From positions 1-26,456 of the IMG/VR virus record IMGVR_UViG_3300028557_001125: a stretch of 26,456 nt of DNA; one strand, given 5' to 3'. This document shows, piece after piece, positions 15,244-16,128 of this stretch. Origin of the DNA: a virus. Numbering within the stretch: position 1 is the first letter of the stretch; the number at the start of each line of letters is the position of its first letter. The position numbers and the translations under genes are program-made. The notes beneath the pieces are model-generated. The model was not told the DNA's origin. It saw only the letters and a program-made list of their open reading frames with translations, and searched no databases.

Positions 15244-15272
15244 TAGTGCACCTGCCAAAAGGGGGTGCACTA
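15244..15272 (+). promoter_or_regulatory. 9-bp hairpin at the 5' end of the Hsp20 mRNA
   Basis: TAGTGCACC (15244-15252) pairs perfectly with GGTGCACTA (15264-15272) around an 11-nt loop. No T-run follows, so it is not a normal terminator. It sits at or just after the predicted start point and about 14 nt before the AAGGAG site. It may stabilise the mRNA, act as a thermosensor or bind a regulator. Confidence 0.6.
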
Positions 15273-15297: not shown

Positions 15298-15729
15298 ATG
15301 GTAAGTTCGTATACACTGGATCTTTTTAAAGATCCATTTTTTATTGGTTTCAACCGTGAGTTGAACCGTTTTAATCACGTACATAATACTGCAACACGTC
15401 AATCTTATCCACCTTATGACTTAATTAAGGTAGATGAAGATACCTATAAGTTATCTGTAGCAGTTGCTGGCTTCACAAAAGATGAAGTAAAAGTAACTGT
15501 TGAGGATGGAACTCTTGTAGTTAAGGGGGAAATCACTACAGAAACTGCAGGGGAGGCAATTCATAAGGGTATTGCAACACGCAAGTTTACCCGAACATTT
15601 GCTCTTGGTGAATATATGGAAGTAACTGGAGCAGAGATGAAAGACGGAATGCTTCATATTGACATTGATCGCATTGTTCCAGAGGAGAAAAAGCCAAAGG
15701 AAATTGCTATCAAGGTTGCAAAGAAGTAA
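15298..15729 (+). CDS. Hsp20/alpha-crystallin small heat-shock protein
   Basis: A 143-residue chaperone. The alpha-crystallin domain (about 38-130) starts with YPPYDLIKVDEDTYKLSVAV, includes VEDGTLVVKGE and the FTRTFALGEYMEVTGAEMKD strands, and ends with GMLHIDIDRIVPEEKKP; I-x-V at IAIKV (137-141) is the oligomer-docking motif at the C-terminus. Small Hsps hold unfolding proteins without ATP. They are known from some cyanophages. The ATG at 15298 has AAGGAG 7 nt upstream, so I prefer it to the longer GTG start at 15265, which lies within the leader hairpin. It has its own promoter and hairpin leader, suggesting separate control. Confidence 0.93.
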   Translation: MVSSYTLDLFKDPFFIGFNRELNRFNHVHNTATRQSYPPYDLIKVDEDTYKLSVAVAGFTKDEVKVTVEDGTLVVKGEITTETAGEAIHKGIATRKFTRTFALGEYMEVTGAEMKDGMLHIDIDRIVPEEKKPKEIAIKVAKK

Positions 15730-15734
15730 TAAAG

Positions 15735-15740
15735 TATAAT
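15735..15740 (+). promoter_or_regulatory. -10 element for the candidate ncRNA
   Basis: TATAAT six bases after the Hsp20 stop. No extended TG and no convincing -35. The predicted start at about 15746-15747 coincides with the first paired base of the RNA stem. Confidence 0.5.
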
Positions 15741-15744
15741 AGAA

Positions 15745-15822
15745 GTCCCCGCATAGGCCTTGGGATGGATTAGTTACCTTTTCCTTAAATTCGGCCTTCG
15801 TGCTTGAATTCCTATGCGGGGC
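15745..15822 (+). ncRNA. Candidate structured RNA closed by an 11-bp stem
   Basis: CCCCGCATAGG (15747-15757) is the exact reverse complement of CCTATGCGGGG (15811-15821), enclosing 53 nt. Inside, AATTC (15788-15792) pairs with GAATT (15806-15810), stacking directly on the 3' arm of the closing stem. GGCCTT occurs twice, at 15756-15761 and 15793-15798. A -10 box ends 6 nt before the stem, and the next gene has its own promoter at 15838, so the segment looks like an independent RNA of about 75-80 nt and not a leader. It lacks tRNA T-loop and anticodon features. No coding frame fits. I know no family name for it; orientation is inferred from the promoter. Confidence 0.55.
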
Positions 15823-15834
15823 TTAAACAATCTT

Positions 15835-15843
15835 TGCTATAAT
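15835..15843 (+). promoter_or_regulatory. Extended -10 promoter before the short HNH gene
   Basis: TTGCTATAAT contains TGC plus TATAAT (15838-15843). The ATG at 15853 is 9 nt downstream, so the leader would be about 0-3 nt with no ribosome-binding site. Confidence 0.65.
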
Positions 15844-15852
15844 GTAATTGCT

Positions 15853-16128
15853 ATGACTGAAAAAGAATTAGCAACAAAAACGAAGCAGCAATATAAAAAA
15901 AGGCTGGCAGAGATTAAACAGACCAGCGGATGCGCCGACTGCGGAGAAAAAAATCATATAGTATTAGATTTTGATCATTTAAGAGATAAAAAATATAATG
16001 TCTCTAGAATGATTCATGATGGGTTTTCATGGAAAGCAATTGTTAAAGAAATTAAAAAATGCGAAGTAGTTTGTGCCAATTGTCATAGAATTAGAACTCA
16101 TAATAGATTGACAAAGCAAACTGCCTAA
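15853..16128 (+). CDS. Short HNH-family endonuclease
   Basis: A 91-residue HNH protein: a basic N-terminal helix (TKTKQQYKKRLAEIK), CADC (27-30), the catalytic region LDFDHL (Asp39, Asp41, His42), KKYNVSRMIHDG, then EIKKCEVVCANCHRIRTHNR (Cys74, Asn76, Cys77, His78, His83). This compact form with a structural zinc is widespread in phages, and some members help packaging while others are mobile. It is unrelated in layout to the HNH gene at 5789. I start it at 15853 because the -10 box lies 9 nt upstream; a longer ATG-initiated frame from 15814 would translate through the RNA stem and the promoter. Confidence 0.82.
   Translation: MTEKELATKTKQQYKKRLAEIKQTSGCADCGEKNHIVLDFDHLRDKKYNVSRMIHDGFSWKAIVKEIKKCEVVCANCHRIRTHNRLTKQTA

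Follow-up and report, generated by a model that had tools for sequence, protein, structure and literature searches.

Small antisense RNAs encoded by phages, such as the c4 RNA of P1 and P7 (PMC12197685), are structured molecules that carry their complementary stretches in loops and aim at mRNA; neither rRNA nor 23S rRNA in particular is mentioned as a target of phage sRNAs in that review. Phages take over ribosomes with proteins, and a natural phage RNA aimed at rRNA was not found in the literature searched. For rancRNAs, which are small cellular RNAs, a direct action on the ribosome has been proposed (PMC8938821). Bridge B2a between the ribosomal subunits is formed by helix 69 (H69) of 23S rRNA, in which conserved modifications are found. 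A synthetic PNA directed at this helix is reported to inhibit the growth of E. coli (Kulik 2017, cited in PMC7038079). The ornate RNAs GOLLD and ROOL are phage-encoded. Their role is unknown (PMC12286853). Here we describe a family of small structured phage RNAs with a conserved core complementary to H69.

The window, i.e. the whole stretch of DNA that was analysed, comprises 26,456 nt (positions 1-26,456 of the IMG/VR virus record IMGVR_UViG_3300028557_001125). Its positions 15746-15822 are inferred to be transcribed into a phage small RNA of approximately 77 nt, for which no RNA data are available. The segment 15747-15821 is a member of an RNA family present in more than 120 viral contigs, most of them environmental phage sequences. 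The locus has the following features.

15298-15729, + strand: hsp20 gene, upstream of the RNA (Pfam HSP20, E 1.4e-20)
15735-15740, + strand: -10 box TATAAT of the RNA, read directly; it ends 6 nt 5' of the stem
15747-15757, + strand: 5' arm of stem P1 (CCCCGCATAGG); none of the 11 pairs is lost in any of the 33 relatives of the alignment
15759-15768, + strand: core block 1, CUUGGGAUGG (CUURGGRUGG in the family), formed by the junction J1/2 and the 5' strand of P2
15765-15781, + strand: hairpin P2 (RUGG, 9-nt loop NUUAGUUAC, CYAY); 95.5% of alignment cells paired
15771-15778, + strand: core block 2, UAGUUACC, the 3' part of the P2 loop
15788-15810, + strand: hairpin P3 (GGC/GCU core, with the extension AATTC/GAATT in the window); 98.5% of alignment cells paired
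15811-15821, + strand: 3' arm of stem P1 (CCTATGCGGGG); many relatives have a T-rich tail after it
15838-15843 (TATAAT), + strand: extended -10 (TGCTATAAT) of the HNH gene, separate from that of the RNA, read directly
15853-16128, + strand: HNH endonuclease gene, downstream of the RNA (PHROG 2255 HNH endonuclease, E 1.4e-22)

The overall fold is a three-way junction closed by the 11-bp stem P1, which encloses the hairpins P2 and P3. An earlier note, made from the sequence alone, had pointed to a perfect 11-bp stem around 53 nt, had considered it unlikely by chance and had named covariation in homologous intergenic regions as a test. The stem was confirmed with its arms at 15747-15757 and 15811-15821, and the test was passed: in an alignment of 33 distinct sequences, P1 was paired in 363/363 cells, and seven of its 11 pairs showed compensatory (double-sided) changes while none was broken. 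The stem is therefore beyond chance. The covariation score of P1 exceeded all 500 shuffles, and slid controls collapsed. In many relatives the sequence of P1 differs yet the pairing stays, as in CCCCACACAGG/CCTGTGTGGGG and GCCTCACGTAGG/CCTACGTGGGGC. The window segment taken singly folds at -28 kcal/mol (z -2.5), with 4/200 dinucleotide shuffles as good. Twelve G-U cells and no A-C cells were found in the P1 alignment, and the 869 inner P1 pairs of 79 RNAs included 48 G-U, no A-C and one A-A, the latter count being biased because the stem finder favours G-U. The presence of G-U and absence of A-C in P1 identify the + strand as the functional RNA.

Hairpin P2 is imperfect in the window, with one U-U, and an A-U to G-C compensatory change was seen in three sequences. 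An alternative pairing of P2 (UAGG/CCUA) was rejected, since only 87% of the cells were paired compared with 95.5% for RUGG/CYAY and since it is broken in variants with an inserted base. Across the family, P3 consists of GGC/GCY with a variable outer part. The internal AATTC/GAATT hairpin claimed earlier thus held only in part, being restricted to close relatives of the window. The apical loop of P3 varies (CWUCGU, UAUUGU, GCAA and others), and P3 is therefore probably structural.

Scanning viral contigs for the exact stem returned 14 contigs, whereas the inner motif TNGGRTGGNTTAGTTACC was found in at least 119 stretches, mostly representing the same RNA; the 3' part of the RNA alone gave 42 matches, and a scan with the junction left free gave 120. 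The Rfam check recommended earlier returned no match in the window with the Rfam 15 covariance models at the gathering cut-off, and only chance-level matches (E approximately 1-2) at lax thresholds. Rfam scans of ten related loci detected tRNA and tmRNA only and gave no match to the RNA. The statement that the element is no tRNA or tmRNA held as well, with zero such genes detected in the window by ARAGORN and Rfam. A BLAST search of the RNA against 50,697 phage records revealed no credible match, the RNA model R1 did not match in the Streptomyces phages Coruscant and Karimac, and the core pattern was not found in 84,980 bacterial and archaeal genomes. The RNA is missing from 19 of 40 related phage records, many of which are fragments, and none of the 40 carries two distinct copies. 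In locus L020, whose Hsp20 is 97% identical, hsp20, Znrib (zinc-ribbon gene) and SNase are kept while the RNA and the HNH gene are both lacking. We regard this RNA as a well supported new family that has been missed by current annotation, even if the link to rRNA discussed below should fail.

In 72 of 79 distinct relatives, the 40 nt upstream of the RNA contain a -10-like hexamer, at a distance to the stem of exactly 6 nt in 31 and of 6-9 nt in 50 of them; in the exceptions, another small hairpin element is located between the -10 box and the RNA. The earlier note had also reported a -10 box 6 nt before the stem and a separate promoter of the next gene, and both are present in the window at 15735-15740 and 15838-15843, the former without a good -35 in a consensus scan. 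A -10-like hexamer follows the RNA in 115/130 loci. The 10 nt 3' of the stem contain 5.3 T on average, and a run of at least four T occurs near the stem in 59/130 loci. According to the neighbour table, hsp20 upstream and HNH downstream of the RNA are frequent and the commonest neighbours, but not constant ones, and a structural-region gene or a convergent gene is found elsewhere. In L101, L103, L111 and L196, a convergent gene ends right 3' of the stem. Given that the flanking genes vary and that a convergent gene lies directly downstream in some phages, the RNA does not serve as the leader of a single gene. A riboswitch or cis-acting leader would be expected in front of a consistent class of genes, which is not the case across these loci in view of the convergent genes and the own -10 box of the next gene. 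Because the neighbours vary, 19/40 records have no copy and L020 lacks both the RNA and HNH, we consider the RNA to be accessory and stand-alone; its independence of the neighbours is shown, and its transcription is well supported but inferred in the absence of RNA data. The earlier proposal of a new, independent small structured RNA is supported by the -10 distance, the varying neighbours and the convergent genes, although the transcript is still inferred.

The invariant positions of the RNA were taken from scans in which the examined position was left unfixed. The junction CUURG occurred in 75/75 relatives retrieved with this motif unconstrained, and UAGUUA within the loop in 24/24 matches of a scan in which any loop sequence was allowed, while the first two positions of the P2 loop are variable. 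Together with the variable P3 loop, these invariants define J1/2 and the P2 hairpin, CUURGGRUGG-NU-UAGUUACC, as the functional surface.

No function had been proposed in the earlier note, and the complementarity of this core to H69 is new. The core CUURGGRUGG-NU-UAGUUACC is the reverse complement of 23S H69 at 18/18 conserved positions in Streptomyces (L317), Arthrobacter (L318) and Actinomyces (L319), compared with 15/18 in E. coli, Gemmobacter and Burkholderia; the antisense of actinobacterial H69 reads CUACCUUAGGAUGG-UUA-UAGUUACC. Core block 1 complements 23S 5'-CCAUCCUAAG and agrees with the actinobacterial antisense in 10/10 positions (R = A or G) and with the E. coli type in 8/10. Both A and G pair at the R positions of the core, since both R face U in the rRNA. 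Core block 2 complements H69 5'-GGUAACUA, with 8/8 positions matching the antisense of actinobacterial 23S rRNA. When compared with the rRNA of E. coli, the two blocks (junction and loop) agree with the antisense of 23S 1910-1929, which corresponds to H69 and its 3' side. The mismatch to H69 concerns two nucleotides in the middle of the loop, the phage loop being one nucleotide shorter. The predicted duplexes of the RNA with H69 range from -26.7 to -34.1 kcal/mol (window -28.4).

The sum score of 23 core variants of the family at H69 was 365, whereas 400 shuffled rRNA sets had a mean of 203 (sd 20) and a maximum of 302. None of 1000 shuffles was as good as the core consensus, and the two blocks with a 7-8 nt spacer were matched in 12/6000 shuffled rRNA sets (either strand, 16S or 23S). 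This strong family result was obtained with actinobacterial 23S rRNA and not with that of E. coli alone, for which the family scan reached p of approximately 0.03 (12/450) and the two blocks 0.002-0.006. For full-length single RNAs, 57/1000 shuffles were as good as the window, 3/1000 as good as L132 and 0/1000 as good as L148, a divergent member with 14 contiguous and 8 further nucleotides matching the H69 antisense. The full sequence of the window alone is thus not decisive, and the strength of the match comes from the family. The match to H69 was noticed after several matches to rRNA had been seen and without pre-registration; the nulls include both strands of 16S and 23S. A background scan of phage loci could not be used because its best match was an unmasked family member (L244). 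Complementarity to H69, which is statistically strong, and the preference for its actinobacterial form are shown at the sequence level. An extension of the match into P3 and the 3' tail, although tempting by eye, was rejected, as 139/479 other antisense windows reached the family sum of the colinear window.

The host of the phage is inferred, and the 23S comparison did not contain any freshwater host sequence. The terminase of the window phage is 52% identical to those of the Streptomyces phages Coruscant and Karimac and has a wider relationship to Gordonia phages. By its terminase, DnaE and RecA, the phage falls close to the Streptomyces Stanwilliamsviridae, and its nearest cultured relatives infect Streptomyces and Gordonia. 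These terminase relatives make an actinobacterial host plausible independently of the rRNA match; a terminase search of genome contigs for a host yielded no relative.

On balance, we slightly favour the interpretation that this accessory sRNA of the phage base-pairs with H69 in the 23S rRNA of an actinobacterial host and alters translation, with binding, its timing and any effect on the ribosome being inferred. According to this hypothesis, the P2 hairpin and the adjoining single strand J1/2 would present the antisense of H69. On 50S subunits that are free or still being assembled, the RNA would pair with H69 and with the strand adjoining it on the 3' side, the UAGUUAC loop making the first contact. 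P2 would then open to pair along H69 and the 3' strand, or alternatively form a kissing interaction with the H69 loop. Such pairing may hinder subunit joining, the modification of H69 or the maturation of the 50S subunit, and translation or the fate of host rRNA would be shifted during infection. Speaking against this model, an action on H69 would need high expression of the RNA, given approximately thousands of ribosomes per RNA. Protection of H69 from a host nuclease would be an equally possible role of the RNA, and the sequence does not decide between the two. A bolder version of the antisense hypothesis, to which we give rather less than even credit, sees in the RNA a phage weapon or tool of a new class, namely an antisense RNA against the functional core of 23S rRNA (H69, bridge B2a). 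Tuned to actinobacterial rRNA, it might serve to mark host ribosomes, to re-programme them or to shut them down, or else to block rRNA maturation.

The rival explanation that survives best, and that remains possible, is that of an orphan structured RNA in which the conserved loop and junction serve to bind a protein or small ligand, with the rRNA match being a coincidence. Structure and conservation require no rRNA partner, and a marginal sense match to the 790 loop of 16S rRNA (27/450 null sets) shows that chance can produce a likeness to rRNA. However, no conserved core position falls outside the antisense match to H69, the match is specific to the stem as found in actinobacteria, and none of the 400 null sets reached it. 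Less well supported, and in our view unlikely, is a cis-acting element such as an hsp20 terminator or 3' end, an HNH leader or riboswitch, or a put-like antitermination RNA. In most loci the RNA indeed lies between co-oriented genes and right after a promoter, and a T-rich tail is frequent. However, hsp20 or HNH can be missing next to the RNA, convergent genes can follow it, a separate -10 precedes the downstream gene in 115/130 loci, and a terminator or simple leader has no need for invariant CUURG and UAGUUA.

A mimic of the 16S 790 loop (helix 24), acting as a decoy for IF3, KsgA or a similar factor, appears very unlikely. The P2 hairpin GG-NUUAGUUAC-CY resembles GG-AUUAGAUAC-CC in 12/13 nt, both in hairpin loops, but the significance is marginal (8/150 shuffles, 27/450 null sets), the loop position that corresponds to U788 can be C or G in unconstrained matches, the CUURG junction is left unexplained, and the resemblance also follows from the likeness of 16S h24 to the antisense of the H69 loop. 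Equally improbable is a DNA-level element, e.g. a site for recombination or homing that travels together with the HNH gene: HNH stands downstream more often than any other neighbour and is jointly missing with the RNA in L020, but the G-U pairs without A-C mismatches in P1 indicate an RNA strand, the -10 box stands at a set distance, and many copies have no adjacent HNH.

Two further candidates were discarded. Antisense to the phage's own mRNAs was rejected, since the loop complement GTAACTAA was not enriched in 1.47 Mb of RNA-carrying loci (10 occurrences on the same strand, 23 on the other). A packaging RNA of the phi29 type was ruled out, because the phage lies near the Streptomyces Stanwilliamsviridae and the RNA is missing in 19/40 related records, many of them fragments.

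Several other elements were observed in these phages. In L131, L144, L178 and L242, the same core (CTTAGGATGGATTAGTTACC) occurs within a longer hairpin RNA of approximately 120 nt, located directly 3' of a tRNA-Ile(UAU) gene and downstream of a terminase gene (folding z -3.2); we consider it an independent scaffold for the anti-H69 core, with binding again being inferred. The small hairpin element GTCGGGGGAGACAGCGACATTAAATACCTGG is found just upstream of the RNA, 3' of the -10 box, in L102, L115, L122, L134, L146, L147, L167 and L186, and also in L048 and L058. In the window, the -10 box of the HNH gene ends just 9 nt 5' of its ATG (15838-15856), and the HNH mRNA is therefore probably leaderless. 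The hsp20 transcript appears to begin with a perfect hairpin (window 15247-15272), AGTGCACC...GGGTGCACT, which lies immediately 3' of a TATAAT with a good -35 and may act as a 5'-end stabiliser. A different intergenic element of approximately 30 nt after hsp20, e.g. GACCTGAGCATGTCCATAAACTGCTC, is consistent with an H-type pseudoknot immediately upstream of a ribosome-binding site and start codon. It is absent from the window and was seen in L029, L031, L035, L036, L044, L045, L048, L049, L074, L075, L077, L081, L089, L093 and L020. In 16 sequences, 96% of its cells were paired, 6/8 pairs in both stems were compensatory, and the covariation score exceeded all 500 shuffles. Rfam gave no match to it in seven loci. 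It may be a new mini-riboswitch or translational operator.

If the antisense hypothesis is true, the RNA would represent a compact natural antisense scaffold against a highly conserved, drug-relevant ribosomal helix, would allow a simple test of host matching in which the core is compared with the H69 of the host, and would give a function to a widespread orphan RNA of environmental phages. With GOLLD and ROOL (PMC12286853) it shares being a structured RNA of unknown role, whereas those RNAs are hundreds of nucleotides long, and the Rfam scans showed no similarity to them. The synthetic PNA (Kulik et al. 2017, PMC7038079) targets the same helix by complementarity but is an artificial oligomer. 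Like the rancRNAs (PMC8938821), the RNA described here is small and would act directly on the ribosome, an association that is inferred; unlike these cellular RNAs, it is phage-encoded and has its own conserved fold and a defined H69 antisense. The conserved and exposed complementarity to a target RNA that is expected of a trans-acting phage antisense RNA is present (18/18 core positions, 0/400 null sets). The RNA resembles the c4 RNA of P1 and P7 (PMC12197685) in being small, structured and phage-encoded with complementary stretches in a loop, and differs from phage antisense sRNAs directed at mRNA in its proposed target, a helix of the host rRNA.
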